The notes under the pieces: generated by a model
The model's database searches: none
Told to the model about the DNA's origin: nothing
The model's input: the letters and a program-made list of their open reading frames with translations, nothing else
In this document: positions 3 to 18,400 of the stretch, one piece after another
Layout: each line of letters opens with the position of its first letter
Numbering within the stretch: position 1 is the first letter of the stretch
Position numbers and translations under genes: made by a program
Assembly: GCA_019359515.1 (NCBI GenBank)
Contig: JAHHHC010000001.1
Span: forward strand, 248,001 to 312,000
Origin: Desmonostoc vinosum HA7617-LM4
GTDB taxonomy: Bacteria > Cyanobacteriota > Cyanobacteriia > Cyanobacteriales > Nostocaceae
DNA length: 64,000 nucleotides
Direction: 5' to 3'

Positions 3-3000
3 GTTGAATATCAAGCGATCGCTAAACACCATCATCCCCATCAAACAGTTTTAATTGCCCGTGACACACCAGGTATTGCGGCGCGGATAGCCGCAGAAAA
101 ATTGAATATACCTCTTTTAGCAGTCATGTCCTCACCAAGCCACCTTTCCACCAGGTCGCTAGTTGCAGAACTAATTGGTTCTATTTTTGGTGATGAGATC
201 AATCAAATCAGAGCCAAAATGGGTCTAGTGCCTGTAAGTGATTGGTTGGCATGGTTAAGATTACCCGACAAGACAATTGGACTTTGGCCAGACTGGTTTG
301 CACCCAAATCGTCAGGAGTATTGCAGACAGGTTTTGTATGGCACGATCAGCCATCAACAAATAACCTTCCCGCAGAACTTCGAGAAGTGCATGGAGAAGA
401 ACCACCAATTTTAATTACAGGTGGCACCACCTCATTAGCAGGGGCCAAATTTTTCGCAGTTAGTGCCGAAGCGTGTCAGCTTTTGCAACGTCGGGGTCTT
501 TTGGTGACGCGACACGCAAAACTAGTACCAGAAAACCTTCCCAGTTTAGTTAAGTGGGTGCAATACCTGCCATCGATGGTAAGTTGTATGCCTTATACAA
601 GCGCCGTGATTCATCATGGCGGTTTAGTTACAAGCGGTCAGGCGATCGCCTCTGGTATACCGCAGTTGGCGCTGGCAATGGGAGCAGATCAGCTATATAC
701 TGGCTCTTGCTTGAGTCGCGTGGGAGTTGGTGAGTGCTTGCCGCCATCTCAATGGCAAGCAAAAGTGATAGCTGAGAGTTTGGAACAGCTGATTAATTCC
801 CCTACCGTACAACAGCGTTGCCAAGAATTGTTACGTAGAATTATTGATACTAACCCTGTAGCAGTTGCTTGTGATGCGATCGAGGCGCTAATTCCTCAAA
901 ACGATTCGTACATCAGGCTAAAACCGACACTGCAACCAGAAAATTATGCTGTAAAAAACAATACAGAAAAAAATAATTTCCAAACGAGTAATCTACTCCA
1001 ACTCACACAAAAGCTTTCCCCAGAAAAGCTAGCCCTCTTGGAACTGCGGCTGATGAAAAAGCATCGGGATGTCGCCAAGACAATTCCTGCGATTCCCCGC
1101 AATTTAGAACAGAACTATTTTCCCCTTGCCTTTGCCCAACAGCGACTATGGTTTCTCGACCAATTAGCCCCAGGCAACCCAACTTACAATATTTCTGGTG
1201 CTGTCCGCCTGATGGGAACACTCAACGTTACAGCCTTGGAAGAGTCCTTCAATACTCTTGTGCAGCGCCACGAAGTATTGCGAACTACTTTTACTACAAA
1301 ACAGGAGCAACCTGTACAAGTTATTGCCCCCGCCGATAAATTCACACTGCCAGTATTGGATTTGCAAGGATTATCAAAGGCAGAACAGCAACAGCAGATT
1401 CAAAAGTTAGCAATTAGAGAACAACAGCGTTCTTTTGACTTGACAACAGGGCCATTGTTGCGAGTGAGTTTGCTACAACTCAATCAAACAGAGCATGTGA
1501 TGTTGTTTTCCATGCACCACATTATCTCTGATGGCTGGTCGATGGGCATCCTAATTCGGGAAATTGCCACACTCTATGCCTCTTTCTCTACCGGGAAGCA
1601 CCAATCCTTACCAGAACTTTCCATCCAATACGCAGACTTTGCGCTTTGGCAGCGTCAGTGGCTTGTAGGGCAAGTGTTAGAGACTCAACTTACCTACTGG
1701 AAGCAGCAGTTAGGTGGCAATATTCCCATACTTAATTTACCTTGCGATCGCCCCCGTCCAAAAATACCCAGCTTCCAAGGAGCAACCCACTCTTTTATAC
1801 TGCCTGCTAGCTTGTCCCAAGCCCTGCAAAAGCTTTCACAGCAAGAGAACGCCACCCTCTTTATGACACTGCTAGCAGCCTTGCAAACACTACTGTACCG
1901 CTACACAAATCAGGAAGATATTGTAGTTGGGACTGATGTTGCTAACCGTAACCGAGCCGAAACAGAAGCTTTGATTGGTTTCTTTATCAATTTACTTGTT
2001 TTGCGGACAGACTTATCGGGTAATCCCAGTTTTCGCGAACTTTTGAAACGGGTGCGCGAGGTAGCATTAGGTGCGTATGCCCATCAAGATTTACCCTTTG
2101 CAAAGCTGGTGGAAGAACTGCAACCAGAACGCAATTTGCAACCCACACCCCTATTTCAAGTTTTGTTTGTCATGCAAAATACACCAATGTCACCGCAGTC
2201 GCTTTTGGGATTGGAGATGGCACCAATAGAAGTTGACAACAAAACTGCAAAGTTCGATTTAGCTCTATTTATCAATGAAACAGAACAGGGATTAATAGGC
2301 AGTTGGAACTACAGCACCGACCTTTTTGATGCGACTACTATTACTCGCATGACAGGTCATTTTCAGACGCTACTAGAGAATATTGTCTCGCAACCTGAGA
2401 CAAGAATTGATAGTTTAGAAATGCTGACGACAACAGAAAAAAAACAACAAATTATCCAAAAAAGGGAGCGTCAAACTTTCAAACGGGAAAAATTAATGAA
2501 AGTTGTTCCCAAAGCTGTAAATTTATTACCAGAACAATTAATTAAAATTGATGATCTCGAACCAGGACAAACATTTCCTTTAGTGATTCAGCCTAACAAC
2601 GATGAGATTGATTTGATTGTTTGGGCTAAAAATAACCGCGAATTAATAGAGACAAAATTATTAAAATCTGGAGCTATTCTTTTTCGAGGCTTCCACATTC
2701 AATCTACCTTAGAATTTGAAAGTTTTGCTCAGGCAATTTGTCCAAAATTATTCGGCGAATATGGCGATTTACCCCGTACAGACGAAGGAGGAAAAGTATA
2801 TGGTTCTACACCTTACCCAGCTGACAAAGCAATTCTCTTCCATAATGAAAGCTCTCATTTACATAGTTTTCCTCTCAAAATATGGTTCTTCTGCCTGCAA
2901 CCAGCCGCAAAAGGTGGAGAAACGCCAATTATAGATTGTCGTCAAGCTTACCGAATTCTTGATCCCAAGTTACGAGATAAATTAGCTGAAAAGCAATTAA

Positions 3001-3506
3001 TGTATGTTCGCAACTATACAGATAGTTTAGATGTCAGTTGGCAAGAGTTTTTTCAAACTCATGATCAAAATGTAGTAGAAAGAATCTGCAAACAAGCAAA
3101 AATTGATTTTGAATGGCATGAGAATAATGGACTTGTCACTCGTCAAATTCGTCCAGCATTGGCAATACACCCAAAAACCGATGAACCTGTATTTTTCAAT
3201 CAAATTCAGTTGCATCATATAAACTATTTAGATTCAGAAGTGCGAGAATCTTTATTATCTTTATTTAGTGAACATCAGCTACCACGGAATGTTTATTATG
3301 GTGATGGTACTCCCATTGAAGATTCTGCAATTACAGAAATTAATGAAGTTTATCGACAGTCTCAAACTAGCTTTTCATGGCAAAAGGGTGACATATTAAT
3401 GTTAGATAATATGCTCGCTGCCCACGGACGTAACCCTTATGTAGGCTCTCGCAAAATTGTGGTGGCAATGGGCGAAATGATCAATAGCGCAGATATTATT
3501 AAATAA
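3..3506 (+). CDS. Glycosyltransferase (GT1) - NRPS condensation - TauD/SyrP-type hydroxylase fusion, 5'-truncated by the window edge
   Basis: The frame is open from base 3, so the true start lies outside the window; 1167 residues are visible. Residues ~1-290 resemble the GT1/MGT glycosyltransferase fold, with the nucleotide-sugar signature HHGG at ~203 followed by A-x3-GIPQ and a DQ pair. Residues ~370-815 are a condensation domain with intact HHIISDG (~506). Residues ~845-1167 are a TauD/TfdA Fe(II)/2-oxoglutarate oxygenase with HNE (~946) and a distal His in AAHGRNP (~1140), closest in pattern to SyrP-type aspartate beta-hydroxylases. The gene ends 14 bp before the next NRPS gene, whose first domain is an interface-like C domain followed by an Asp-type A domain. 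The TauD part therefore probably hydroxylates PCP-bound Asp, while the C domain condenses it with the upstream chain. What the GT domain glycosylates is unknown. Domain families are clear; partner assignments are inference. Confidence 0.85.
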   Translation, partial: VEYQAIAKHHHPHQTVLIARDTPGIAARIAAEKLNIPLLAVMSSPSHLSTRSLVAELIGSIFGDEINQIRAKMGLVPVSDWLAWLRLPDKTIGLWPDWFAPKSSGVLQTGFVWHDQPSTNNLPAELREVHGEEPPILITGGTTSLAGAKFFAVSAEACQLLQRRGLLVTRHAKLVPENLPSLVKWVQYLPSMVSCMPYTSAVIHHGGLVTSGQAIASGIPQLALAMGADQLYTGSCLSRVGVGECLPPSQWQAKVIAESLEQLINSPTVQQRCQELLRRIIDTNPVAVACDAIEALIPQNDSYIRLKPTLQPENYAVKNNTEKNNFQTSNLLQLTQKLSPEKLALLELRLMKKHRDVAKTIPAIPRNLEQNYFPLAFAQQRLWFLDQLAPGNPTYNISGAVRLMGTLNVTALEESFNTLVQRHEVLRTTFTTKQEQPVQVIAPADKFTLPVLDLQGLSKAEQQQQIQKLAIREQQRSFDLTTGPLLRVSLLQLNQTEHVMLFSMHHIISDGWSMGILIREIATLYASFSTGKHQSLPELSIQYADFALWQRQWLVGQVLETQLTYWKQQLGGNIPILNLPCDRPRPKIPSFQGATHSFILPASLSQALQKLSQQENATLFMTLLAALQTLLYRYTNQEDIVVGTDVANRNRAETEALIGFFINLLVLRTDLSGNPSFRELLKRVREVALGAYAHQDLPFAKLVEELQPERNLQPTPLFQVLFVMQNTPMSPQSLLGLEMAPIEVDNKTAKFDLALFINETEQGLIGSWNYSTDLFDATTITRMTGHFQTLLENIVSQPETRIDSLEMLTTTEKKQQIIQKRERQTFKREKLMKVVPKAVNLLPEQLIKIDDLEPGQTFPLVIQPNNDEIDLIVWAKNNRELIETKLLKSGAILFRGFHIQSTLEFESFAQAICPKLFGEYGDLPRTDEGGKVYGSTPYPADKAILFHNESSHLHSFPLKIWFFCLQPAAKGGETPIIDCRQAYRILDPKLRDKLAEKQLMYVRNYTDSLDVSWQEFFQTHDQNVVERICKQAKIDFEWHENNGLVTRQIRPALAIHPKTDEPVFFNQIQLHHINYLDSEVRESLLSLFSEHQLPRNVYYGDGTPIEDSAITEINEVYRQSQTSFSWQKGDILMLDNMLAAHGRNPYVGSRKIVVAMGEMINSADIIK

Positions 3507-3520
3507 GGATGGAGTAACGA

Positions 3521-6500
3521 ATGCAATCTAACACTATTCAAGGCTTTCGGCTTTCTCCCCAACAGAGGCACCTTTGGTTATTACAAGCAAATAATTCGGT
3601 TTATCGGGCGCAATGTGCTATTTATGTTGAAGGTAATCTCAATCTAGACTATTTAAAAGCTGCTGTAGAGCAAGTCATTAACAAGCATAAAATTCTCCGC
3701 ACCAATTTTCATTGCATACCTGGTATGAAGATGCCAATTATGGTTGTGGAGGATCGTATTTCTCCTTTGTGGCAAGAAATCCAGTTGATTGATGGTGAAA
3801 CAACAAAAATTGAGCGGTTGTTTCAGGATAAGATTACTCAAAATCACAACAATAATATTACTTTATATTTAATTAAACTCTCTTTAGATAAATATATTTT
3901 AATTATTAACTTACCTGCGCTTTGTGCAGATTATTGGACACTGTATAATTTAGTTAAAGAGATTAGTATTACCTACTCAGAATGCTTAAAAGGTCAAAAA
4001 TATAGCGATTTGGAAGTTGTACAATACGTGCAATTTGCAGAATGGCAGAATCAATTACTAAAAGATGAAGTAGCCACAACAGAAAATAATTATTGGCTAA
4101 ACCAAGATTTTTCATCGCTAGCTAAATTGCAGCTACCATTCGAGGATCAGAATTCTCAACAAACAGCATTTGTACCAGCGTCTTTCAAAGTAGCACTTTC
4201 TGACGATATCACTACAAAATTAGAATTACTTGTACAGCAGTATGACTCTTCTACATCTGTATTTTTACTGGCGTGTTGGCAGATACTGCTATGGCGATTG
4301 ACAAAACAGCCAGAGATCATCATCGGCAAGGCTTGTGATGGTAGAGAATATGCAGAACTGCATGATGCTTTGGGATTATTTGCCAAATGGTTGCCAATCC
4401 GTAGCCAACTGAACACAAATTTATGCTTTAAAGAAGTTGTAGAACTAGCTCAAAAAGTTATAGAAGCTGCGGAAGAATGGCAAGATTATTTCGTTGCCGA
4501 AAAGTTGATTGAGCAACCTGAAAAAGGTATAGTTTTCCCCTTTGGGTTTGAGTTTGTAGAATTTTCACAACAATTTTCTGTAGATGAAGTTGTATTTTCA
4601 TTGGAGCAGCAATACACTTGTATTGAACCGTTTAAAGTTAAACTTGTTTGTTTGCAAAACAACGATTCTTTGTTAATAGAATTTCACTATGATACCAACT
4701 TATACTCAACCACAGCTATTCAAAACCTAGCCGAACAATTTCAAACTTTATTATTCAGTGCAATTGCCAATCCAGAAGTGGCAATTAGCAAATTAGCAAT
4801 CTTAAGTGCGATCGCACAACACCAACTGTTATTAGAATTTAACAATACTCAGACTGATTACCCACTCAACAAGTGCATCCACCAACTGTTTGCCGAACAG
4901 GTAGCCAAAACTCCCAATCATCTCGCTGTGGTATTTGAACAAGAGCAACTCACCTATACCCAACTGAATGCTCGTGCCAACAAAATCGCTCGTTATCTGC
5001 AAAAGTTGGGAGTAGGGCCAGAAGTAATTGTAGCTGTTTATCTGGAGCGATCGCTGCATACAATCACAGCCATGCTCGGTATCCTTAAAGCCGGTGGAGC
5101 CTATCTAGTAATAGACCAAATACCCAAACAAGGGCTAGCATTGCGGTTGCAGGATGCTCAAATATCAATCATTCTCACCCAACAGACTTTAGTCGCAACA
5201 CTACCAACACATCCGGCACAGATAATTTGCCTAGACAGCGAAGTTGCGATCGCTCAAGAAAGCTGCGAAAATGTCACTAGCAAAGTAACGAGCAACAATC
5301 TAGTTTACGTCGTGTACACCTCTGGTTCTACAGGTAAACCCAAAGGTGTAGCGATCGAACATCGTCAACTACTCAATTATTTTTACGCCATCTCAGATAA
5401 ATTAGCTTTACCTAATCCTGCCAGCTTTGCCACCGTTTCCACCTTCGCCGCCGACTTGGGCAATACAGCAATTTTTCCAGCTTTATGTACCGGAGGTTGC
5501 CTGCATATTATCTCCCAAGAGCGGGCTACCGACACAGAAGCACTAGCAGATTACTTTCACCGTCATCAGATCGATTGTCTGAAAATAGTTCCCTCTCATT
5601 TAGCAGCGTTGCTAACTTCCACTAACGCTAAATCTATATTGCCTCGACTGCGACTAATTTTAGGCGGTGAGGCTGCTAGTTGGCATCTAATTGAGCAGAT
5701 TCGGCAGTTGATGCCGGAGTGTCAAATCCTAAATCATTACGGCCCGACTGAAACTACGGTTGGGGTGCTGACGTATCTAGTAAATAACAAACAAAACTAC
5801 ACACAAACTGTTCCTCTTGGGCGTCCGCTAGCTAATACTCAGGTTTATGTACTCGATGAGGAACTGCAACCTGTACCTATTGGTGTGCCAGGTGAACTGT
5901 ACATTGGCGGGGTTTCTGTGGCTAGAGGCTATTTAAATTCACCTCAGTTAACCAAAGAGCGATTTATGCAACTCCCTGCCTCTAATCAATCAGCAGCAAA
6001 GCTCTATAAAACGGGGGATATAGTTCGTTACTTACCGGATGGAAATCTAGAGTTTTTGGGACGAGTTGATTATCAGGTAAAGTTACGCGGTTTTCGCATT
6101 GAATTAGGAGAAATTGAGGCGCTACTTAGTCAATATCCGCAGGTGCAACAGGCAGTAGTTACAGTCCGAGAGGATCGGCCAGGGGATAAGCGTTTGGTAG
6201 CTTATGTAGTGTCCAGACGAGAATTAGATACTAGTCAACTGCACCAATTTCTTCAAGAGAAACTACCTGAATACATGATACCGACTGCCTTTGTACTGCT
6301 GAAGACACTACCTTTAACAGCCAATGGTAAAGTCAACCGCCAGGCACTACCAACCCCTGAACAAACGCCATCGCCAGAAACTTTTGTAGCACCTCGAAAT
6401 CCGGTCGAAGAAGTGCTAATTGGCATTTGGGCTGAAATTCTCAGTTTGAAACGGGTAGGCATTGACGATGATTTCTTCACCTTGGGCGGACACTCACTGC

Positions 6501-9500
6501 TAGCAACTCAAGCCATCTCCCGCATCCGTAAAGCGTTTGCAGTGGAACTACCTCTGCGCCAACTATTTGAAACACCCACGGTAGCCGGACTAGCCAAACA
6601 AATTGAAACAGCAATGAAGGCTGGAGAAAAACTGCAACTTACCGATATCAAACGTGTTTCTAGAGATAGGGAAATACCGCTATCATTTGCCCAGCAGCGC
6701 TTGTGGTTTCTAGAGCAACTAAATCCTGGTGGGGCTGCCTACAATCTTTCTAGAGCGATTCGCATTACAGGCAAACTAAATATTGCTGCACTCCAAGAGT
6801 GTATAAACGAAATCTTGCAGCGTCACGAAGTTTTACGTACAAGTTTTGCGATCGCTCATGCCCAACCAGTGCAAAAAATTGCATCGTCTTTGCAACTGAA
6901 TATACCAGTAATAGATTTACAGGAACTACCTACACAAGCCGCCGAAATCCAACGCTTGGCTACTTTAGAGGCGCAACAAGGGTTTGATTTAATGCAAGCT
7001 CCCTTACTGCGGATGAGTTTATTAAAGCTGGCTGCGGAAGAACATGTAGTATTATTTACCATGCACCACATCGTCTGTGATGGTTGGTCAACTGGTGTAT
7101 TGATTCGAGAATTAACAGCACTCTATCAAGCCTACTCTTATTCTTACTCCCCACTCCCCACCCCCCACTCCCCACTCCCCATTACCCCTAATCCCCACTC
7201 CCCACTCCCCACTCCCCACTCCCCACTCCCCACCCCCCACTCCCCACTCCCCATTACCCCCACTCCCCACTCCCCACTCCCCACTCCCCACTCCCCACTC
7301 ACAGAATTGCCCATCCAGTATGCAGATTTCGCTATTTGGCAACGACAGTGGTTAGTAGGGGAAGTACTAAAAAATCAATTGGCGTACTGGAAACAGCAAC
7401 TCCAAGATTTACCAGTCTTAGAACTGCCCACAGACCGTCCGCGGCCTGCCATGCAAACTTTTCGGGGTGAAACGCGATCGCTTTTGTTGCCTCAAGCCCT
7501 AACTCAAGCACTCAAAGCTTGCAGCCAAAAGCAGGGAGTCACTCTATTTATGACACTGCTAGCAGCATTTAAGACATTGCTCTATCGCTACACCGCTCAA
7601 ACAGATATTGCTGTCGGTTCGCCAATTGCTAACCGCAATCGCGGCGAAATTGAAGATTTGATTGGGTTCTTTGTCAATACATTAGTGCTACGCACCAACC
7701 TATCGAGCAACCCGACTTTCTCACAGTTGCTGGTGCGGATACGCGAGGTGACATTAGGAGCCTACACCCACCAGGATTTACCGTTTGAAAAACTGGTCGA
7801 AGAATTGCACTGGCAACGAGATTTAAGCCGCGCTCCTTTATTTGGGGTGATGTTTGTCTTCGAGAATGCCCCAATGCCAGATTTAGAGCTACCAGGTTTA
7901 GTTCTGCAACCCTTGGAAATCAACACCAAAGCGGCGAAGTTTGACCTGACTTTGTATATGGTAGAAACACAAGAGGGACTGACAGCCAGCCTAGAGTACA
8001 ACAGCGATTTATTTGATGCTGCGACCATAACGCGGATGTTGGGTCATTTTCAGACTTTGCTAGAGGGTATCTGCGTCGATACCAATCAACACCTCTCTGA
8101 TTTGCCTTTGCTCACACCAACTGAGCAACAGCAACTATTAGTCACATGGAACAACACTCAGGCTAATTATCCCAACCAGTGCATTCACGAGTTATTTGCT
8201 GCCCAGGTAGAGCAGTCGCCCGATGCTGTCGCAGTCATATTTGAGAACGAGCAACTGACTTACCGCGAACTTAATACCCGTGCCAATCAACTAGCGCATT
8301 ACTTGCAACAGTTAGGAATAGGGGCGGGAGTGCTAGTTGGTATTTGTATAGAACGGTCAGCAGCGATGATAGTGGGGCTACTGGGCATTCTCAAAGCTGG
8401 TGGAGCTTATGTACCTTTAGACCCAGCATACCCACAAGAGCGGTTGAATTTGATGTTAAAAGACTCTCAGGTGTCGGTATTGCTGACTCAGCAGCACCTT
8501 GTTGGTAAACTTACTGAATCCACAGCCAAGATAATTTGCATTGATACCGGCTGGCTAGATATTGCCCAACATTACAAACAAAATCCTACTAGCAAAGCTA
8601 CACCCGATCATCCCGCCTATGCAATCTACACTTCCGGTTCTACCAGTACACCTAAAGCAGTTCTCGGTACTCATCGCGGTGCTGTCAACCGTTTTGCTTG
8701 GATGTGGAAGACCTACCCTTTTACACCAAAAGAGATTTGTTGCCAAAAAACATCCCTGAGTTTTGTAGATTCTGTCTGGGAGATTTTCGGCCCATTACTC
8801 CAAGGAATTCCCCTTGTTCTGATACCCGATTTAGTCATCAAAGAGCCACAACAGTTTTTGACAACCCTCGCCAGTCACCGAGTTACTCGGCTTGTACTAG
8901 TGCCTGCTTTACTGCGCTTATTGTTAGATACTGATACGGATTTACAACAAAGACTACCTGACCTCAAGCTTTGGGTGACAAGCGGTGAAGCCTTAGCGAT
9001 CGCTCTTTTACAACGCTTTCGGCAGTCCCTACCAGAGAGTATACTTTTAAACCTATACGGTTCTTCAGAAGTAGCTGCTGATGTCACCTGTGATTGTAGC
9101 AGTCCCCAAGACCAAATACCCGATCGCGTTTTGATTGGAGGTGCGATCGCTAATACGCAAATTTATCTCCTAGATGCCTATTTACAACCAGTACCTATGG
9201 GAGTAGTTGGGGAATTGTACATCGGTGGCGATAGTTTGAGCTTGGGCTACCTGCACCAACCAGAATTAACAGCACAAAAGTTTATCTCCAACCCCTTTGA
9301 GGAGGCAGGGGGAGAAAGAGGACGCGGGGACGCGGGGACGCGGGGACGCGGAGAAAGCGTTTCTTGTACAGACGCGATTAATCGCGTCTCAGGGGGAAGC
9401 CGCCTTTACAAAACAGGTGATTTAGCTCGTTACCTACCAGATGGTAACTTGGAATTTGTGGGACGCTGCGATCGCCAAATTAAACTGCGTGGCTTCCGCA

Positions 9501-10120
9501 TTGAACTATCCGAGATTGAAGCAACATTAAGTCAATATCAAGGAGTGGGATCAACTATAGCCATGATTCGGGAAGATCAACCCAACCACAAGCGAATCGT
9601 AGCCTACATTGTTCCTCGCCCAGAATCGAATCTCACCAGCAGTAATATCCACCATTTTCTCAGCGAAAAATTGCCAGAATACATGTTACCAAATGCCTAT
9701 GTATTCTTAGATAAACTACCCTTATTACCCAACGGCAAAATTAATCAATCTGCCTTACCCGCACCAGGCGATCGTCGTCCAGAACAAGAAACAATATTTG
9801 TTGCACCCCAAACACCAACTCAAGAAAAAATCGCCCAGATTTGGACAGAAATTTTATCAATCAAGCAAGTAGGAATTGACGACGATTTTTTCCTATTGGG
9901 AGGACATTCGCTGTTAGCAACACAATTGATTTCACGAATCTATCACAGTTTTGGCGTACAGCTATCATTACGAGACTTATTCATTTCCCCAAAAATTTGT
10001 AGCCTAGCCGAAAAAGTAGAAACAGCCCTTTTGCTCAATGCCAATATCGACACGATGCTCGACCAACTAGAAACAATGGATGAAGAAGAAGTGCAAAAAA
10101 TATTAGCCCTTGATGAATAG
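3521..10120 (+). CDS. NRPS, two modules: interface-like C - A(Asp) - PCP - C - A(beta-Ala) - PCP
   Basis: 2199 residues. Residues ~1-435 are C-like but lack the HHxxxDG motif (LPALCAD instead), as in the interface domains that pair with beta-hydroxylases. A1 (~460-960, YTSGSTGKPKG at ~598) gives the pocket read-out D-L-T-K-I-G-H-V-G-K, the Asp code. PCP1 has GGHSLL near 988. A conventional C domain follows (HHIVCDG near 1181) and carries a repeat-derived insertion at ~1209-1260. A2 (~1545-2075) reads V-D-W-V-V-S-L-A-D-K, a beta-alanine-type code; its A3 core is unusual (TSGSTSTPKA) and a second repeat insertion lies before the YKTGD motif. PCP2 has GGHSLL near 2126. No epimerase or thioesterase is present. 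GGATGGAG lies just upstream of the ATG. Product inference: (beta-OH-)Asp then beta-Ala. Domain calls are firm; substrates come from reading the code by eye. Confidence 0.93.
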   Translation: MQSNTIQGFRLSPQQRHLWLLQANNSVYRAQCAIYVEGNLNLDYLKAAVEQVINKHKILRTNFHCIPGMKMPIMVVEDRISPLWQEIQLIDGETTKIERLFQDKITQNHNNNITLYLIKLSLDKYILIINLPALCADYWTLYNLVKEISITYSECLKGQKYSDLEVVQYVQFAEWQNQLLKDEVATTENNYWLNQDFSSLAKLQLPFEDQNSQQTAFVPASFKVALSDDITTKLELLVQQYDSSTSVFLLACWQILLWRLTKQPEIIIGKACDGREYAELHDALGLFAKWLPIRSQLNTNLCFKEVVELAQKVIEAAEEWQDYFVAEKLIEQPEKGIVFPFGFEFVEFSQQFSVDEVVFSLEQQYTCIEPFKVKLVCLQNNDSLLIEFHYDTNLYSTTAIQNLAEQFQTLLFSAIANPEVAISKLAILSAIAQHQLLLEFNNTQTDYPLNKCIHQLFAEQVAKTPNHLAVVFEQEQLTYTQLNARANKIARYLQKLGVGPEVIVAVYLERSLHTITAMLGILKAGGAYLVIDQIPKQGLALRLQDAQISIILTQQTLVATLPTHPAQIICLDSEVAIAQESCENVTSKVTSNNLVYVVYTSGSTGKPKGVAIEHRQLLNYFYAISDKLALPNPASFATVSTFAADLGNTAIFPALCTGGCLHIISQERATDTEALADYFHRHQIDCLKIVPSHLAALLTSTNAKSILPRLRLILGGEAASWHLIEQIRQLMPECQILNHYGPTETTVGVLTYLVNNKQNYTQTVPLGRPLANTQVYVLDEELQPVPIGVPGELYIGGVSVARGYLNSPQLTKERFMQLPASNQSAAKLYKTGDIVRYLPDGNLEFLGRVDYQVKLRGFRIELGEIEALLSQYPQVQQAVVTVREDRPGDKRLVAYVVSRRELDTSQLHQFLQEKLPEYMIPTAFVLLKTLPLTANGKVNRQALPTPEQTPSPETFVAPRNPVEEVLIGIWAEILSLKRVGIDDDFFTLGGHSLLATQAISRIRKAFAVELPLRQLFETPTVAGLAKQIETAMKAGEKLQLTDIKRVSRDREIPLSFAQQRLWFLEQLNPGGAAYNLSRAIRITGKLNIAALQECINEILQRHEVLRTSFAIAHAQPVQKIASSLQLNIPVIDLQELPTQAAEIQRLATLEAQQGFDLMQAPLLRMSLLKLAAEEHVVLFTMHHIVCDGWSTGVLIRELTALYQAYSYSYSPLPTPHSPLPITPNPHSPLPTPHSPLPTPHSPLPITPTPHSPLPTPHSPLTELPIQYADFAIWQRQWLVGEVLKNQLAYWKQQLQDLPVLELPTDRPRPAMQTFRGETRSLLLPQALTQALKACSQKQGVTLFMTLLAAFKTLLYRYTAQTDIAVGSPIANRNRGEIEDLIGFFVNTLVLRTNLSSNPTFSQLLVRIREVTLGAYTHQDLPFEKLVEELHWQRDLSRAPLFGVMFVFENAPMPDLELPGLVLQPLEINTKAAKFDLTLYMVETQEGLTASLEYNSDLFDAATITRMLGHFQTLLEGICVDTNQHLSDLPLLTPTEQQQLLVTWNNTQANYPNQCIHELFAAQVEQSPDAVAVIFENEQLTYRELNTRANQLAHYLQQLGIGAGVLVGICIERSAAMIVGLLGILKAGGAYVPLDPAYPQERLNLMLKDSQVSVLLTQQHLVGKLTESTAKIICIDTGWLDIAQHYKQNPTSKATPDHPAYAIYTSGSTSTPKAVLGTHRGAVNRFAWMWKTYPFTPKEICCQKTSLSFVDSVWEIFGPLLQGIPLVLIPDLVIKEPQQFLTTLASHRVTRLVLVPALLRLLLDTDTDLQQRLPDLKLWVTSGEALAIALLQRFRQSLPESILLNLYGSSEVAADVTCDCSSPQDQIPDRVLIGGAIANTQIYLLDAYLQPVPMGVVGELYIGGDSLSLGYLHQPELTAQKFISNPFEEAGGERGRGDAGTRGRGESVSCTDAINRVSGGSRLYKTGDLARYLPDGNLEFVGRCDRQIKLRGFRIELSEIEATLSQYQGVGSTIAMIREDQPNHKRIVAYIVPRPESNLTSSNIHHFLSEKLPEYMLPNAYVFLDKLPLLPNGKINQSALPAPGDRRPEQETIFVAPQTPTQEKIAQIWTEILSIKQVGIDDDFFLLGGHSLLATQLISRIYHSFGVQLSLRDLFISPKICSLAEKVETALLLNANIDTMLDQLETMDEEEVQKILALDE
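7147..7301 (+). repeat. Heptanucleotide tandem repeat (CCCCACT family) inside the NRPS coding region
   Basis: About 155 bp built from the 7-mer CCCCACT with variants (CCCCATT, CCCCTAAT). Three 7-mers make 21 nt, so the tract is read as a heptapeptide repeat, S-P-L-P-T-P-H, without stops. It falls between the helix after the C-domain active site (LTALYQAY) and the conserved LPIQYADF, where other C domains here have a short loop. The same 7-mer occurs in intergenic DNA at about 21205-21235 and near 46610 and 62440, so it is a genomic short tandem repeat that has expanded within a gene. Confidence 0.95.
9304..9402 (+). repeat. In-frame dispersed repeat (GACGCGGG tract plus 18-bp palindrome) inside A domain 2
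   Basis: A GGGGACGCG tandem tract is followed by the perfect palindrome GACGCGATTAATCGCGTC at 9371-9388. It is inserted in frame in the variable loop between the FISNPF and LYKTGD segments of the beta-Ala A domain and encodes a Gly/Arg-rich stretch. A close copy sits in the PKS gene at 16733-16816, and a partial copy lies between dhaL and dhaK near 54588. Confidence 0.9.
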
Positions 10121-10210: not shown

Positions 10211-11824
10211 ATGAAAAAAGCAACAACATGTACTGAGGCTCCCAAAAATAGCATCGAAAACTATATTAAGGATATATTTTCTATTTCCAATCACCCAAAA
10301 TTAGCAGAGATAAAATTAGATGAAAAAATTTCAACAATTACTAAAAACTTCTTACAAGATGACAGCGTTTGCACCGATATCGACCTAGTATCAATAACTC
10401 ACCAATTTAGTAATAGTCAAATCCCTGCTGAGCCATCCGAAATTACTAGTTATATAGATGATTTAGTCACCAATGTCATCGACCATTCAATTCATACCTC
10501 TTCCCCACGATTTATTGGTCACATGACATCAGCACTCCCCTATTTTGTCCGTCCTTTGGGGAAATTAATGACTGCAATCAATCAAAATGTCGTCAAGACA
10601 GAAACCTCAAAATCATTCACTCCTTTTGAACGCCATAGTTTGGCATTGATGCACCGCTTAATTTATCAATTCTCTGAGGAGTTTTATCAATTTCATATTC
10701 AAAATTATGAAAGTACACTTGGGATCATAGCTACTGGAGGTACGCTAGCTAATATTACAGCACTTTGGTGCGCTCGGAATTTTTCACTAGGGCAAAAAGA
10801 TAATTTTACTGGGATTGAAAACGAGGGTTTACCAGCAGCATTAAAATTTTATGGGTACGAGGGAGCCGTGATTATTGGCTCCGAGCGAATGCATTACTCT
10901 TTTGAAAAGGCAGCAGGTTTATTGGGAATAGGTGAACGCAGTTTAATTAAAGTTCCTGTTGATAGTAAAAATCGCATTGACTTGTCAAAATTACAGCAAA
11001 CTATTGCAGAGTGTCGTACTGCTAAAAAACATATTATTGCTATAGTTGGTATTGCCGGGGCTACTGATTGTGGAGCTGTAGATCCACTGTTAGATATGGC
11101 AGAAATTGCCCAAAATGCTAATATCCATTTGCATGTTGATGCTGCTTGGGGTGGGCCAGTTTTGTTTTCAGAACAACATCGGCATAAACTTGTCGGCATT
11201 GAAAGAGCAGATTCGGTAACAATTGACGGGCATAAACAGCTATATTTGCCAGCAGGAATTGGCATGGTATTACTACGCAATCCGCAGATAGCAAAAGTAA
11301 TTGAGAAGTATGCAGCATATACCGTAAGAAAAGAATCAATTGATTTAGGTAAGCGCTCTTTGGAAGGTTCGCGTCCAGGGATGGTTTTATTTTTAGGAGC
11401 TGCCCTGAATTTAATTGGTCAAAAAGGTTATGAATTTTTGATTGATGAGGGCATTAGAAAAACTCAATACATGGCAAATTTAATTCTCAATCAACCTGAG
11501 TTTGAATTACTGTTAGAACCAGAGATTAATATTCTTTTATATCGCTATATTCCCAAGCATTGGAGACAGAAAGTAGCTACAGGTGAGTTAACAAAAGCTG
11601 ACAATCAACTCATTAATCAATTTAATGAACATTTGCAAAATCTCCAGCGTCAAGCAGGTTTGACTTTTGTCTCAAGAACGACTTTAGAAGTTGCAGGAAT
11701 ACCAATTGTGGCATTGCGGGCAGTCATTGCTAACCCACTGACTACCGAAGTTGATATTGACGCCGTTTTAGATGAGCAAATCAAAATTGCTGCCAGCATA
11801 TCTGTATTGGAGGAGGAAAGATGA
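10211..11824 (+). CDS. panP: PLP-dependent aspartate 1-decarboxylase (PanP-like group II decarboxylase)
   Basis: 537 residues, close to the usual ~547 for PanP. It is a fold-type I group II decarboxylase: substrate/cofactor segment SPRFIGHMTSALPYF (~97-111), TGGTLANITALW (~176), HVDAAWGG (~313) and the Schiff-base lysine in DGHKQLY (~341). PanP enzymes convert L-aspartate to beta-alanine. Here the gene lies directly after an NRPS whose last A domain has a beta-alanine-type code, so it probably supplies that monomer. The stop overlaps the next NRPS start by 4 bp (ATGA), preceded by GGAGGAAAG, which implies translational coupling. Cysteine-sulfinate, glutamate or diaminobutyrate decarboxylase activity cannot be excluded by sequence alone. 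Family confidence is high; exact substrate is moderate. Confidence 0.82.
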   Translation: MKKATTCTEAPKNSIENYIKDIFSISNHPKLAEIKLDEKISTITKNFLQDDSVCTDIDLVSITHQFSNSQIPAEPSEITSYIDDLVTNVIDHSIHTSSPRFIGHMTSALPYFVRPLGKLMTAINQNVVKTETSKSFTPFERHSLALMHRLIYQFSEEFYQFHIQNYESTLGIIATGGTLANITALWCARNFSLGQKDNFTGIENEGLPAALKFYGYEGAVIIGSERMHYSFEKAAGLLGIGERSLIKVPVDSKNRIDLSKLQQTIAECRTAKKHIIAIVGIAGATDCGAVDPLLDMAEIAQNANIHLHVDAAWGGPVLFSEQHRHKLVGIERADSVTIDGHKQLYLPAGIGMVLLRNPQIAKVIEKYAAYTVRKESIDLGKRSLEGSRPGMVLFLGAALNLIGQKGYEFLIDEGIRKTQYMANLILNQPEFELLLEPEINILLYRYIPKHWRQKVATGELTKADNQLINQFNEHLQNLQRQAGLTFVSRTTLEVAGIPIVALRAVIANPLTTEVDIDAVLDEQIKIAASISVLEEER

Positions 11825-14800
11825 GTAGCGATCGCTTGCAAAGATTACAAAATCTTTCACCCCAAAAACGAGCGCTGCTTTTAAAAGCATTGCAGAAAGA
11901 TGCAACGCCAACTGCACAGTCTCTATCGATTCCGCGCCGGAATGAGCAGACACCTTGCATTTTGTCCTATGCTCAACAGCGTTTGTGGTTCCTGGCTCAA
12001 TTAGAACCAGGTAGCGCAGCTTACAACATAGCTACCGCCGTCAGATTGCTGGGTGTACTCAATGTAGCTGCCTTGCACAGAAGCTTGAATGAAATCGTTT
12101 GTCGCCATGAAGCCCTGAGAACAACCTTTACTACAGTCGCAGGGCAACCAGTCCAAGTAATCGCACCCGCTGTCACCTTAGTTTTGCCACTAGTGGATTT
12201 GCAGGAGTTTGCTGAACAGGAAGCCAAAGTACAGCGACTAGCAAGCGAAGCAGCACAGCACCCCTTCGATTTGACTCAAAGCCCGCTTTTACGAGTTACC
12301 TTACTACGATTAAGCCAAACAGAGCATGTACTGCTCTTAACAATGCACCATATCATCTCTGATGGTTGGTCAATGGGAGTTTTAATTCGAGAATTGACAG
12401 CACTATATCAAGCCTACTTTGATTCTGACTCCCCGCTACCGCTAACAGCACAAGCTGAACACCCCGCTACCGCTAACAGCACTCGGCATTCCCCACTCCC
12501 CATCCAGTATGCAGATTTTGCAGTTTGGCAGCGACAGTGGTTGCAAACAGAAGTACTGCCAACTCAGATGTCTTACTGGAAGCAGCAACTAGGCGGTACT
12601 TTGCCAGTCTTAGAATTACCCACCGATCGCCCGCGATCGCCAATTCCCTCTTTCCGGGGTGAGACTCAATCATTCTCCCTATCTCCTCAACTGTCTGAAG
12701 CACTCAAAGCCTTGAGTCTGCAAGAGGGAGTTACCCTATTCATGACTTTATTAGCGGCATTTCAGACATTGCTCTACCGCTACACCGCTCAAGAGGATAT
12801 TTTAGTTGGCTCGCCCATCGCCAACCGCAACCGCTGCGAGCTTGAAGGGTTAATTGGTTTTTTTGTCAATACTCTAGTACTGCGTACTAACCTCAGCGGT
12901 AATCCCAGTTTCCGCGAGTTGTTAGGGCGGGTGCGTGAGGTAACTTTAGCAGCTAATGCTCACCAAGACTTGCCTTTTGAGGTACTAGTAGATGAACTGC
13001 AACCACAGCGAGATTTAAGTCGTAATCCCCTGTTCCAAGTAACTTTTACGCTGCATAACGCACCAAAGCCAGCCTTGGAACTGCCAGACTTGATATTAGA
13101 GCCATTAACTATCCAAAAAACAACAGCACAATTTGACTTGAGTCTGGACATGGTAGAGGAAAGCCAGGGAATCAAGGGGTCTGTTGAATACAGTACCGAT
13201 CTGTTCAATGCCTCTACCATCACCCGGATGTTAGAACATTTCCAGACAATGCTAACAGCGATCGCCGCCCATCCAGACAAGCACCTGTCAGACTTGCCGA
13301 TTTTGACAGCAACCCAACAGCAACAATTGCTAGTGGAGTGGAATCAAACTCAGGTTGATTATCCCCAACACCTGTGCATTCACCAACTATTTGAGAACAT
13401 TGCCCAGCAAACACCAGATGCAATTGCCGTAATATGCCAGGGTGAACAATTTACCTATCGAGAACTAAACCAACAAGCCAACATCATTGCTCACCATTTA
13501 CAAGCGCTGGGAGTAAAACCGGAAACACGAGTGGGTATTTGCACACAAAGAAGCGTTGATATAGCGATCGCAATTTTGGCAACCCTGAAAGCTGGTGGTG
13601 TATACGTACCATTAGATCCGTCCTATCCGCAGGAACGCTTGGCTTTGATGTTAGAAGATGCAAAGCCTTTAGTATTGCTAACTCAACAACAGTTAGCGAC
13701 AAAACTACCGCAAATAGAAGCAAAAAATGTATACATAAATATTGACTGGCAAGTAAATTCACTGAATCAGCAAAATCCCATTAGTGACGCTACACCCGAT
13801 AACTTAGCTTATATAATTTATACCTCCGGCTCTACTGGCATACCAAAAGGAGTTGCGATCGCGCATCAAGCATTAGTGAACCACAGTATTGCTGCTGCCC
13901 AAGCTTATCAACTACAACCAAATGATAGAGTACTGCAATTTGCTTCAATTAGCTTTGATGTTGCCGCAGAAGAGATATTTTCATCCTGGTTGAGCGGTGC
14001 AACAGTTGTGATTCGGCCAGAACAAGTACTGATTTTTGCAGACTTCCTGCAATTTTTAGCAGCAGAACAACTCACCGTTCTCAATCTCCCGACTGCCTAC
14101 TGGCATGAGTGGGTAACATATCTTACTCAACATCAAACATCATTGCTGCCAGCGCTGCGTCTAGTAATTGTGGGAACCGAGTCAGCCTCACCAGAAAAAT
14201 TAGAGCAGTGGCAGAAACTAGCAGATAAAAGCGTCCGTTGGTTGAATGCTTACGGCCCCACCGAAGCAACCATTGGGGCAACAATTTATCAACCAGAAAA
14301 CCAGCTGAGTAATTGCGTACCAATTGGTCGTGCGATCGCCAACACCCAGGTTTACATTTTAGATAAACATCTGCAACCCACACCAATAGGTGTATCAGGT
14401 CAATTGTATATCGGGGGTGATAGTTTAGCACGTGGCTACCTCAATCAACCCGAACTAACAGCCCAGAAGTTTATTCCTAACCCCTTTAACAATTCAAAAT
14501 TTAATAATCGCCTTTACAAGACAGGTGATTTAGCTCGTTATCTACCCGATGGGAATATTGAATTTCTTGGACGGATTGATCATCAAGTTAAAATTCGAGG
14601 CTTCCGCATCGAACTAGGCGAGATTGAAGCCAGATTGAACCAACACCCTCATATTAACCAAGCTGTAGTTATACCATGGGAAAGCGATCGCCATGACAAA
14701 TCCTTAGTAGCCTATATCACTCCTCAATCAAACCAGACATTAACAGCTACCGAACTGCGTAGTTTTCTCAAAGAAAAACTACCAGAATACATGCTACCTT

Positions 14801-15252
14801 CCGCCTTTGTAATTCTTTCAACCCTACCATTAACACCCAACGGCAAACTAGATCGGCAATCCCTGCCCGTAGCAGCTCGTCCAGAATTAGTAATTGCTGA
14901 TATCATCCCACAGACAGAAATCGAAAAAAAAATTGCTACCGTTTGGCAAAACGCGCTCAATCTTGAAAAAATTGGCATTCACGATAACTTCTTTGAAATC
15001 GGCGGTAATTCCTTATTAATCGCTAGAATTTATAGCCAATTACAAAAAATATTCACCACCGACATATCAATCCTCGACTTATTTAGATATCCAACCATAA
15101 ATTCCCTAGCAGAACATCTCTCCCCAGCCAAAAATCAAAACTCTCCCGAAACCAACATTCAACCAGAAAAAATAACAATCATCAAAACCCAACAAAAAAA
15201 ACACTTACAAAAAAGAAAAAACATCACATCCTCTAAAAACGTAGATCTATAA
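11821..15252 (+). CDS. NRPS module C - A - PCP (substrate unassigned)
   Basis: 1143 residues. A short N-terminal helix precedes the C domain (~40-480, HHIISDG near 176), then A (~500-1000, YTSGSTGIPKG), then PCP with GGNSLL near 1062. The A-domain pocket reads D-V-E-N-I-G-A-I-G-K. I cannot match this to a standard code; the acidic third letter (E) is often seen with basic side chains. The protein ends in a ~40-residue Lys/Gln/Asn-rich tail that may dock with the following PKS. The start is fixed by overlap with the decarboxylase stop and a GGAGG box. The usual C-domain loop before LPIQYADF is extended by a 21-bp direct repeat. It contributes one residue to the chain handed to the PKS module. 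Confidence 0.93.
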   Translation: MSSDRLQRLQNLSPQKRALLLKALQKDATPTAQSLSIPRRNEQTPCILSYAQQRLWFLAQLEPGSAAYNIATAVRLLGVLNVAALHRSLNEIVCRHEALRTTFTTVAGQPVQVIAPAVTLVLPLVDLQEFAEQEAKVQRLASEAAQHPFDLTQSPLLRVTLLRLSQTEHVLLLTMHHIISDGWSMGVLIRELTALYQAYFDSDSPLPLTAQAEHPATANSTRHSPLPIQYADFAVWQRQWLQTEVLPTQMSYWKQQLGGTLPVLELPTDRPRSPIPSFRGETQSFSLSPQLSEALKALSLQEGVTLFMTLLAAFQTLLYRYTAQEDILVGSPIANRNRCELEGLIGFFVNTLVLRTNLSGNPSFRELLGRVREVTLAANAHQDLPFEVLVDELQPQRDLSRNPLFQVTFTLHNAPKPALELPDLILEPLTIQKTTAQFDLSLDMVEESQGIKGSVEYSTDLFNASTITRMLEHFQTMLTAIAAHPDKHLSDLPILTATQQQQLLVEWNQTQVDYPQHLCIHQLFENIAQQTPDAIAVICQGEQFTYRELNQQANIIAHHLQALGVKPETRVGICTQRSVDIAIAILATLKAGGVYVPLDPSYPQERLALMLEDAKPLVLLTQQQLATKLPQIEAKNVYINIDWQVNSLNQQNPISDATPDNLAYIIYTSGSTGIPKGVAIAHQALVNHSIAAAQAYQLQPNDRVLQFASISFDVAAEEIFSSWLSGATVVIRPEQVLIFADFLQFLAAEQLTVLNLPTAYWHEWVTYLTQHQTSLLPALRLVIVGTESASPEKLEQWQKLADKSVRWLNAYGPTEATIGATIYQPENQLSNCVPIGRAIANTQVYILDKHLQPTPIGVSGQLYIGGDSLARGYLNQPELTAQKFIPNPFNNSKFNNRLYKTGDLARYLPDGNIEFLGRIDHQVKIRGFRIELGEIEARLNQHPHINQAVVIPWESDRHDKSLVAYITPQSNQTLTATELRSFLKEKLPEYMLPSAFVILSTLPLTPNGKLDRQSLPVAARPELVIADIIPQTEIEKKIATVWQNALNLEKIGIHDNFFEIGGNSLLIARIYSQLQKIFTTDISILDLFRYPTINSLAEHLSPAKNQNSPETNIQPEKITIIKTQQKKHLQKRKNITSSKNVDL
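12431..12482 (+). repeat. 21-bp direct repeat in the C-domain loop
   Basis: The 21-mer beginning CCCCGCTACCGCTAAC occurs at 12431-12451 and 12462-12482. It lies in the same variable C-domain loop that carries the heptamer expansion in the upstream NRPS. The GCTACCGCTAACG element resembles the dispersed repeats in intergenic DNA of this window. Confidence 0.85.
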
Positions 15253-15307: not shown

Positions 15308-15382
15308 TAACTCTCTGCGCCTCCGCGCGGCAGTCGCTACAACGAGGGGAACCCCCGCAACGCGCTGCCTTGCCTCTGCGTG
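15308..15382 (+). repeat. Dispersed intergenic repeat before the PKS gene
   Basis: The stretch runs from CTCTGCGCC through GGCAGTCGCTACAACG and CCCCCGCAACGCGCTGCC to CTCTGCGTGA. A near-identical copy lies upstream of the TauD gene at about 22945-23010, and shortened versions lie upstream of the decarboxylase (~10150) and the aminotransferase (~31938). It overlaps a possible TTG start at 15370, which is one reason to prefer the ATG at 15409. Confidence 0.85.
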
Positions 15383-15408
15383 AAAAAATCTTATATTCAA
15401 TCAAAAAT

Positions 15409-18400
15409 ATGAACACCCCAATAGCACCTAACATCAACGGTTCAGAAATAGCAATTATCGGCATAGCAGGACGTTTCCCCAAAGCTAAAAATCTGGAAGA
15501 ATTCTGGGAAAACCTGCAAAACGGTATCGAAACAATTTCATTTTTTACCGATGAAGAACTTTTATCTACAGGCATAGAACCAGCCATACTCAGCCAGCCT
15601 AATTATGTCAAAGCCAGAGCCGTATTAGAAGATGTAGAATTATTTGACGCTGCCTTCTTTGGCTTCAGTCCCAAAGAAGCAGAAATCACCGATCCACAAC
15701 ACCGCCTATTTTTAGAATGTGCTTGGGAAGCCCTAGAAAATGCTGGATATGACACCGAAACATCCAACAGTGCAATTGGTGTTTACGCTGGTTCTAGCCT
15801 CAGTGGATACATTCTCAACTGTTATTTAGACCCAAATATTACCAACTCTGTAGACCATCATCAACTAGCGATCGCCGGCGATAAAGACTACCTCAGCACC
15901 CGCGTTTCTTACAAACTTAACCTCACCGGGCCTAGTTATACCGTTCAAACCGCCTGCTCAACCTCTTTAGTAGCCGTTCATTTAGCGTGTCAAAGTTTAC
16001 TCAATGGCGAATGCGATTTAGCTTTAGCTGGTGGTGTTTCCATTAATTCCACTAGAAAAGCAGGCTACTTTTACAAAGAGGGAGGTATTCATTCTCCAGA
16101 TGGACATTGCCGCGCTTTCGATGCTCAAGCACAGGGAATTGTTGGCGGTGAAGGAGTAGCGATCGCAGTTTTAAAAAGATTAGAAGATGCCCTTACCGAT
16201 AGAGACACCATCCATGCCGTCATCAAAGGTTCAGCGATTAATAACGACGGAGGGTGTAAAGTTAGCTACACAGCGCCCCGGATAGACGGTCAAGCCCAAG
16301 CAATTAGAACCGCTCAGATGATGGCAGAAGTTGAACCAGAAACCATCACCTACATCGAAACTCACGGCACAGGCACAGCCTTGGGCGACCCCATCGAAAT
16401 CGCTGCACTTACACAAGCTTTTCGCGCCAGTACTGACAAGAAAGGTTTTTGTGCGATCGGCTCACTCAAAACCAACATCGGGCATTTAGATGCTGCGGCT
16501 GGGGTGGCAAGCTTAATTAAAACCGTTTTAGCTCTCAAATATCAACAAATTCCCCCCAGCTTACATTTCCAACAACCAAACCCCCAAATTGATTTTGCCA
16601 ACAGTCCTTTTTATGTCAATACTTCCCTTTGCCAATGGCAGGTAAACGATATCCCCCGCCGTGCAGGTGTTAGTTCCTTTGGCATTGGTGGTACGAATGT
16701 TCATGTGATTCTCGAAGCAGCCCCAGATGTAAGGCAGGGGGAAAGAGGACGCGGGGACGGGGGGACGCGGGGACGCACAGAAAACGCTTCTTGTAGAGAC
16801 GCGATTAATCGCGTCTTGTTGTTGATCTCTGCCAAAACCAGTACCGCCTTAGAAAGGGCAAGCCAAAATTTAGCTGATTATCTGGGGCAACATCCAAATT
16901 TAAACCTTGCCGATGTTGCCCATACTCTCAGCGTAGGTCGTCGAGCTTTCAACTATCGCCGGATGGTGGTGTGCGAAGATATCAACGATGCAGTGCAGGC
17001 GCTTTCTATTGTAGATACTCAACGGGTGTTCACTCACTACCAACAGTTTAGCGATCGCCCTGTCGCTTTTATGTTTTCTGGTCAGGGAACGCAGTATGTA
17101 AATATGGGTAGGGAACTTTACCAGAGTCAGCCAACCTTTACTCAAGCAGTTGATCAATGCTGCGAACTGCTGAAACCGTATCTAGGTCTTGACCTACGTC
17201 ATGTATTATATCCCGATGCAGCCGAGAAAGAAAAAGCAACAGAGCAACTGCAACAGACTTGTTTAGCCCAGCCAGCACTATTTACCATTGAGTACGCCCT
17301 AGCTCAGTTGTGGATGGCATGGGGTGTACATCCCGAAACGATGATTGGTCACAGTATAGGGGAATACGTAGCTGCCGCGTTAGCTGGAGTTTTCTCACTT
17401 GCAGACGCTTTAGCGCTAGTTGCAACCAGAGGACGACTCATGCAGCAACTCCCGACTGGGGAAATGCTCTGTGTGCAACTTTCCGAGCAGGAAGTACAAC
17501 CACTGTTAGGAACGGAACTATCTTTAGCCGCCACCAATACACCAACATACTGTGTGGTTTCTGGTTCCACAGAGGCGATAGGAAGATTGCATCAACACCT
17601 GCAAGCAACAGGTGTAGGCTGTCGGCGATTGCATACATCCCATGCCTTTCATTCTCAAATGATGGAGCCTATTCTGGAGCCATTTTCTCATTCTTTACAA
17701 ACAATCACCTTAAATCCCCCTAAAATTCCGTTTGTGTCTAATGTGAGTGGTACTTGGATTACCGAGGCAGAAGCGACAGACCCCAAATATTGGGTAAAGC
17801 ATCTACGGCAAACTGTACACTTTAGTTCAGGGATAGTTGAGTTGACCAAGACACCTGAGCGTATACTGCTAGAGGTTGGCCCAGGACGAACTCTGAGTAC
17901 TTTTGCACTGATGCATCAGTTGGAGGAACTCGTGGTATTAACCTCGATACATCATCCACAGGAACAACATTCAGATGTGGCATTTTTACTCAACACTTTA
18001 GGTCGGCTTTGGCTAGTTGGAGTTAAAGTTGACTGGTTTGGTTTTTATGCCAATGAACAACGCCATCGTATCCCCTTGCCGACTTATCCCTTTGAACGCC
18101 AGCGTTACTGGATTGAACCACAAAAACCAGCCCTTGGGGGACAGGTTGACCAGACACCTCAAATCTCACCAGACAACAAGCCCGATATTGCTGACTGGTT
18201 CTACATCCCATCTTGGAAACGTTCTCTGCCACCGCAGCCTGGGAAATTTGCTCAGTCAGATTGCTGGTTAGTGTTTGTCGATCAGTGCGGCTTGGGTGAG
18301 AAAATAGTCAAGCGATCGCAACTTCAGGGTCAGGATGTGATTTCCGTCAAGGTGGGCGAAGAATTTCACCGCAATAGCGATCGCTCCTATACAATTAATC

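Follow-up and report, generated by a model that had tools for sequence, protein, structure and literature searches.

The DNA analysed here, referred to as the window, is a stretch of 64,000 nucleotides from the cyanobacterium Desmonostoc vinosum HA7617-LM4 (assembly GCA_019359515.1, contig JAHHHC010000001.1, positions 248,001 to 312,000 of the forward strand), and it opens inside a gene in which a glycosyltransferase (GT), a condensation (C) domain and a TauD-type hydroxylase share one polypeptide. At positions 3-3506 of the forward strand the gene is a single open frame of 1167 amino acids (aa) that runs off the left edge. The whole gene in the source genome lies at G000:C12:247736-251506 (L010:5736-9506), starts with ATG and encodes 1256 aa in an intact frame, only 89 residues of which fall to the left of the window. 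The features of the fusion, in window coordinates, are as follows.

3..3506 (+): fusion protein GT-C-TauD from residue 90 to its end at 1256; its ATG, at G000:C12:247736, precedes the first codon of the window by 267 bases
3..935 (+): glycosyltransferase domain (GT-B, GT1-like), residues 90-400; residues 1-89 lie left of the window
531..836 (+): EryCIII-like_C part of the GT, its donor half, with the motifs IHHGG and GADQLYTG
987..1064 (+): leader-like peptide SNLLQLTQKLSPEKLALLELRLMKKH linking the GT to the C domain, of a type seen before frame-opening C domains (profile of four GT linkers)
1110..2447 (+): condensation domain with HHIISDG intact
2607..3467 (+): TauD-type Fe(II)/2-oxoglutarate hydroxylase domain with HNE and AHGRNP motifs

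This protein places a GT on a known siderophore hydroxylation unit, and the arrangement is conserved, rare and undescribed in the literature searched; the GT is the new part, while the C-TauD pair is known. A preliminary description of the window had proposed the three-part polypeptide from the truncated frame, and the complete gene, its open frame and its Pfam domains confirm it. Along the whole protein Pfam places Glyco_transf_28 at residues 5-127 (27.4 bits, barely over the cut-off of 26.2), EryCIII-like_C at 266-367 (54.1 bits; cut-off 31.7), Condensation at 459-904 (413 bits) and TauD at 958-1244 (150.5 bits), and it finds no adenylation (A) or peptidyl carrier protein (PCP) domain among the 1256 aa. 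The C domain carries the elongating-type motif HHxxxDG, in the form HHII[SA]DG, in all four GT fusions collected.

The N-terminal half of the GT, which might have been lacking in catalytic residues upstream of the window, is present, although its presumed base is Glu and not Asp. A structural model of residues 1-450, built with 14 sequences, has a mean predicted local distance difference test score of 79.3 and a high-confidence core, residues 389-432 and 439-450 falling below 50; its first six matches in the PDB are a GtfA chimera, GtfD and yeast Ugt51, with query template modelling scores of 0.67-0.73. Pfam, model and fold matches thus agree on a GT-B fold with a GT1-type donor half. This likeness extends to GtfA, GtfB and GtfD of the vancomycin group; unlike the fused domain, these are stand-alone enzymes with an Asp base, and identity in the fold alignments is only 20-23%. 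The donor motif HHGG is kept in 4/4 fused GTs. Over 450 aa the window GT shares 65% identity with that of G076, 64% with G175 and 60% with G356, the three other genomes that carry the fusion; between families the GT is 61-66% identical, against 69-70% for the C domain and 67-72% for TauD. In the sole close pair (G076-G175) the ratio of nonsynonymous to synonymous substitution rates (dN/dS) is 0.19 for the GT, 0.14 for C and 0.10 for TauD, and by this measure the fused GT is under purifying selection.

At E <= 1e-40 the GT was detected in four of 388 genomes of the order, the source genome included, and each time in a frame of 1252-1274 aa (G076 1274 aa, G175 1272 aa, G356 1252 aa). The three further carriers belong to two other families (2/19 genomes of one and 1/50 of the other); within the source genome's own family the fusion occurs in 1/217 genomes, the source genome itself. 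A scan of 386 genomes across the phylum at the same threshold returned nothing beyond the source genome and G076, and no close homologue in unfused form came to light at E <= 1e-40 among the 388 order and 386 phylum genomes with up to four candidates scored per genome. Unfused GTs appear as distant relatives only (10/100 genomes at E <= 1e-20, 28-34% identity). Most scans score few candidates per genome, up to four in the GT scans of order and phylum and two in the C-TauD scan, and the counts are therefore lower bounds. A contig scan with the whole protein gave nine loci, in all of which the GT is left uncovered, since the listed matches begin at query residue 398 or beyond; a viral-contig scan gave no match.

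The C-TauD pair without a GT is far more widespread. It was located at 84 places in 82 of the 388 order genomes, and a GT is fused to it at four of them, so that the architecture is indeed unusual, as had been suspected, while C-TauD itself is ordinary. Six of the 84 places were listed with one stop inside the match; re-reading still gave C and TauD in one frame. When all 80 GT-less places were read with a domain library built from the window's cluster, C and TauD shared a frame in 80/80 and a fused GT preceded C in 0/80. The C domain is preceded by a PCP in 64, by the start of the frame in 11 (one at a contig edge), by an aminotransferase-like domain in three, by another C domain in one and by an acyl carrier protein (ACP) in one. 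The three aminotransferase-like domains occupy the GT's place directly before C-TauD (L121:98-4453, L124:9033-13424 and L125:8622-13388, on the strand of the match). Five loci (L084, L090, L093, L100 and L122) encode proteins of 1363-1380 aa with a C-terminal PCP-C-TauD; two of these, L084 and L090, which were shown in full, have a C domain at the start and showed no A domain.

Downstream of GT-less C-TauD (n=80), a degenerate C domain comes next in 71, a methyltransferase in four, a JmjC domain in two, another TauD in two and no domain in one; the degenerate C domain also follows directly in 4/4 GT cases. HHxxxDG is found in 0/21 of the degenerate C domains collected. These domains, named by likeness, appear to be interface-like and tied to the beta-hydroxylase. 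The next A-domain code after GT-less C-TauD is Asp-type in 73/77 (one partly read) and Asn-like in 4/77. On the upstream side, a Thr code directly precedes C-TauD in 4/4 cases with a GT vs 3/58 without, the GT-less count covering cases in which a PCP precedes C and an A domain lies no more than 2 kb away (Fisher p = 6e-5, the four GT clusters being one clade). That clade, made up of the four GT fusions, has a local support of 1.0 in a FastTree tree of 87 C-TauD pairs.

The segment between GT and C bears on how the fusion arose. It contains a peptide like LSPEKLALLEL, and a profile for which no sequences but the four GT-C linkers were used reaches at least 5 bits in 59/87 frame-opening C domains vs 0/132 C domains placed after a carrier domain; with the four GT clusters set aside, the same profile gives 49/73 vs 0/123 (identical segments were counted once and related ones kept). 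This profile replaced a strict leader pattern, found in 4/4 GT linkers, 14/20 frame-opening C domains of a first set and 0/22 C domains after a carrier, which had been drawn from the very sequences on which it was counted, one C domain split by an insertion being excluded. Because the linker resembles the leaders of frame-opening C domains, the simplest reading is that two older genes were fused, a GT gene having probably been joined in frame to an older frame-opening C-TauD gene, with the Thr carrier still supplied in trans.

The surroundings of the fusion were read across 110 kb, with codes named from the A-domain sequences; the amino acids given for these codes are those that we take them to specify. 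On the opposite strand upstream lie an MFS exporter, a PepSY-TM protein and a TonB-dependent receptor. Towards the fusion follow a protein of fatty acyl-AMP ligase (FAAL)-ACP-C-A(Ser)-PCP type, a stand-alone GT1, a polyketide synthase (PKS) module, a hydroxyacyl-CoA dehydrogenase, an acyl-CoA dehydrogenase, an FkbH protein, C-A(Thr)-PCP and then the fusion. The FAAL protein (L009:6182-11524) starts 19.6 kb upstream of the fusion and contains two AMP-binding stretches; a lipid-initiated line is thus indicated, the FAAL being named by sequence without a FAAL-specific model. After the fusion, the line continues in the following order, the first three rows together forming an I-A(Asp)-PCP-C-A(beta-Ala)-PCP arrangement in which I stands for the degenerate C domain.

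3521..4855 (+): degenerate C domain, interface-like, opening the next synthetase; LPALCADYW in place of HHxxxDG
4871..6604 (+): A domain with the Asp code DLTKIGHVG, and PCP; its residue is the likely substrate of TauD
6605..10120 (+): C-A-PCP, code VDWVVSLAD (beta-Ala)
10211..11824 (+): PanP-type aspartate decarboxylase, which would provide beta-alanine
11821..15252 (+): C-A-PCP, code DVENIGAIG
15370..20094 (+): PKS module KS-AT-KR-ACP
20132..21079 (+): Cupin_8/JmjC protein
21250..22809 (+): stand-alone C domain, the unfused counterpart of the fusion's C
23101..24123 (+): stand-alone TauD hydroxylase
24133..27378 (+): interface-like domain-A (DLTKIGEVG, Asn)-PCP
27371..31897 (+): C-A (DVGEVGSID, Orn)-PCP-thioester reductase (TD), for chain release
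32001..33446 (+): class-III aminotransferase
33508..34272 (+): methyltransferase
34733..36829 (+): Ntn-hydrolase acylase (penicillin amidase family) with an N-terminal hydrophobic segment and GSN site

The other three GT clusters keep this core in unchanged order, and in 4/4 the module before the fusion is Thr-coded and the one after it Asp-coded. The stand-alone GT, both dehydrogenases, FkbH and JmjC were not found in these three clusters by a local domain search. Genes for siderophore uptake or export accompany the fusion throughout: a TonB receptor and an MFS protein stand beside 4/4 clusters, a Peripla_BP_2 binding protein beside 3/4 (G076, G175 and G356), and PepSY_TM in the source genome. 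The fusion thus appears to sit in the middle of a predicted lipopeptide siderophore line of the cyanochelin type, at the beta-hydroxy-Asp step. A proline-rich repeat (PTPHSPLP...) at about 7145-7286 is an in-frame insertion in the second complete C domain of the synthetase that follows the fusion, and it splits the domain match. To the right of the cluster, between 38829 and 44007, are glycosyltransferases of GT2 and GT4 type, along with two proteins that resemble each other and have no Pfam match.

The acylase is found in all four GT clusters, with a hydrophobic N-terminus and the Ntn-hydrolase GSN site in 4/4. Against the PDB the window acylase scores 656 bits with glutaryl-7-ACA acylases and 209 bits with PvdQ, and an identity as PvdQ was rejected (NCBIfam equivalog NF051460, 244 bits against a cut-off of 950) in favour of a position nearer the glutaryl-7-ACA acylases; in Leptolyngbya boryana and Gloeothece citriformis, too, acylases are found next to the C-TauD clusters. 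That the enzyme trims fatty acids as PvdQ does is a fair guess and no more.

The closest characterised relative is the cyanochelin B system (ccs, Leptolyngbya sp. NIES-3755, AP017310.1). Passages of PMC12628792 describe a FAAL and hybrid PKS and nonribosomal peptide synthetase (NRPS) line, with an NRPS-fused hydroxylase before one Asp module and a self-standing hydroxylase before the other, and a solved product structure containing beta-hydroxy-Asp. In our reading of the plasmid, which agrees with the paper, C-TauD ends an NRPS and is followed by an interface-like domain-A(Asp)-PCP, a stand-alone TauD precedes a second such unit, and a TD domain ends the line; in the window cluster, likewise, an NRPS-fused TauD directly precedes an Asp-code module. 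Unlike the window cluster, the parts of the ccs cluster read showed no GT, and it has a Gly code before the fused hydroxylase, Asp codes for both hydroxylated residues and a methyl-thiazoline unit; the window cluster differs in its beta-Ala, Orn-type end, aminotransferase and acylase. A word search of the available text found 'glycosyl' and 'interface domain' absent from the cyanochelin B paper (PMC12628792), and 'glycosyl' and 'interface' absent from that of a metallophore-mining paper.

A plasmid cluster of Nostoc sp. NIES-3756 (L052, L053) has almost the same order: FAAL-ACP-C-A-PCP, PKS, C-A-PCP-C-TauD, I-A(Asp)-PCP-C-A-PCP, C-A-PCP, PKS, C, TauD, and at the end I-A(Asn)-PCP and C-A(Orn)-PCP-TD, with a TonB receptor and MFS adjoining. 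It differs in lacking a GT, in a Gly instead of a Thr code before C-TauD, in an extra small TauD gene and in the absence of an annotated acylase from the stretches read; to our knowledge this cluster is uncharacterised. Fused siderophore beta-hydroxylases with an interface domain, a degenerate C-family domain, were reportedly described by Reitz et al. in 2019, and these are said to combine, as here, a C-terminal TauD beside a C-family domain, an Asp module and a degenerate C-like domain. Unlike that type, the degenerate domain of the window cluster opens the next protein, and the fused C domain retains HHxxxDG.

There is about an even chance that the fusion is a split elongation unit, glycosylating as well as hydroxylating, of a cyanobacterial lipopeptide siderophore line akin to that of cyanochelin B. 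In the proposed sequence of events, the upstream Thr-PCP would present its Thr-ended acyl chain to GT and C, perhaps with the leader retained in the linker as its docking site; the GT would transfer a sugar from a nucleoside diphosphate (NDP)-sugar of general metabolism to a hydroxyl of the carrier-bound chain, most likely the Thr side chain; TauD, kept in place by the interface-like domain that opens the next protein, would form beta-hydroxy-Asp, an iron ligand, from Asp on its PCP; and the C domain of the fusion would condense the Thr-ended chain with the hydroxylated Asp. Release would follow by TD reduction, perhaps with transamination; the fatty acyl group may be trimmed by the Ntn acylase after its export, and the outcome would be a sugar-bearing, more water-soluble siderophore imported by the TonB receptor. 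The hydroxyl left by the ketoreductase of the first PKS module, or the beta-hydroxyl of Asp, may serve as alternative acceptors. The N-terminal neighbour of a C domain faces the upstream carrier; in microcystin synthetases of the McyE type, an aminotransferase in this position has the chain on that carrier as its substrate, and by analogy the GT would glycosylate the Thr-ended one. A common NDP-sugar is the likely donor, since none of the cluster genes was recognised as one for an unusual sugar. For hydroxylation and the siderophore setting there is a characterised relative to rely on, but none for the sugar step. The further reading that this constitutes a new in-cis form of NRPS tailoring, in which a GT1 glycosylates the carrier-bound chain on Thr in mid-assembly and the source strain may, with its second GT, make a doubly sugared siderophore, is tentative, its chances being somewhat below even.

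Glycosylation on the line had been suggested before, with a carrier-bound or lipid starter as acceptor before the first condensation; on-line action is plausible, and the starter role is rejected, since the start of the starter protein is 19.6 kb upstream of the fusion and a PKS and a Thr-code NRPS module lie in between. The second GT1 (L009:11890-13146), a stand-alone protein of 418 aa, is encoded on G000:C12 some 14 kb before the window begins, with the FAAL synthetase on one side and the first PKS on the other; a homologue scoring 544 bits occupies the same place in G387 (L157:3041-4312), whose C-TauD has no GT. The siderophores of this group may receive sugars by two different routes.

Several observations weigh against the proposed unit. 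Even as part of a synthetase, a GT may act on the released product. At the position of the presumed base, Glu stands in 4/4 fused GTs vs Asp in 10/10 other aligned GTs (the stand-alone GT of the cluster and nine of ten distant GTs, L019 being excluded for a stop in its frame), and the donor motif of one fused GT reads DR instead of DQ. No sugar-nucleotide gene was recognised among the source-genome cluster genes searched in Pfam or NCBIfam. The strict leader pattern occurs in 0/11 frame-opening GT-less C-TauD genes, and in a TauD-only tree of 19 rows the four GT-borne TauDs are not joined in one clade. Thr codes also precede GT-less C-TauD (the 3/58 above, with three related DFWN codes), and because the four GT clusters form one clade the Thr-GT link may be a single event, so that the test is not independent. 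Finally, the stand-alone TauD is followed, at 24133-27378, by a module whose code is of the Asn type (DLTK[IV]GEVG), as it is at the same place in G076, G175, G356 and L052, whereas cyanochelin B has an Asp code there; beta-hydroxy-Asn is not an obvious iron ligand.

The rival that survives best, though unlikely, holds that the GT is an ordinary tailoring enzyme that acts on the released lipopeptide, the fusion fixing only dosage and co-expression. The closest folds, GtfA and GtfD, act on finished peptides, and a second, stand-alone GT is present in the same cluster; the fusion, however, lies inside the line and is retained in three families, and the order and phylum scans, with up to four candidates scored per genome, revealed no unfused close homologue at E <= 1e-40. 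It is considerably less probable that the GT glycosylates the beta-hydroxyl made by the TauD of the same chain and so masks the ligand. Although GT and hydroxylase share one polypeptide, the ligand would be blocked in a cluster with siderophore transport genes, the GT stands on the donor side of C while the Asp carrier belongs to the next protein, and no glycosidase was recognised among neighbouring open reading frames of at least 200 aa, judged on their first 60 residues with Pfam run on only a part. A transient sugar later cut off by a glycosidase of the cluster was also considered and set aside, no such gene having been recognised among neighbours mostly judged on those first 60 residues.

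Lower still in probability is the view that catalysis has been lost and the domain serves for docking or structure. The exchange of Asp for Glu and the DR motif favour it, but HHGG is kept in 4/4, the dN/dS of 0.19 and the confident GT-B core speak for a maintained enzyme, and Glu is able to serve as a base. That an assembly join or a shift of frame brought GT and C together, a risk raised in the preliminary description, has next to no probability; such an artefact is ruled out, since four genome assemblies agree, the fusion being also open in three genomes of two other families, and nothing was found in its favour.

Glycosylation of nonribosomal peptides is usually a late step carried out by separate enzymes. 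An NRPS with a GT fused to a C domain was not found in the searches made of open-licence papers, a scope outside which the original cyanochelin and interface-domain papers lie. Passages containing 'glycosyltransferase domain' in PMC4598715, PMC4351081 and PMC4787774 concern GT sequences used for sugar prediction and LmbT, a lincomycin-pathway protein whose C-terminal part is weakly GT-like, and these passages mention no GT-C fusion.

If the proposed unit holds, a GT built into a synthetase and retained in three families would demonstrate that glycosylation can take place on the assembly line, and would offer a module for engineered glycopeptides. Sugars alter the solubility, membrane behaviour and receptor acceptance of siderophores, as in salmochelin, so that their addition bears on the competition for iron. 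There would then be a class of glycosylated cyanobacterial siderophores that mining based on chelators would not reveal as such.

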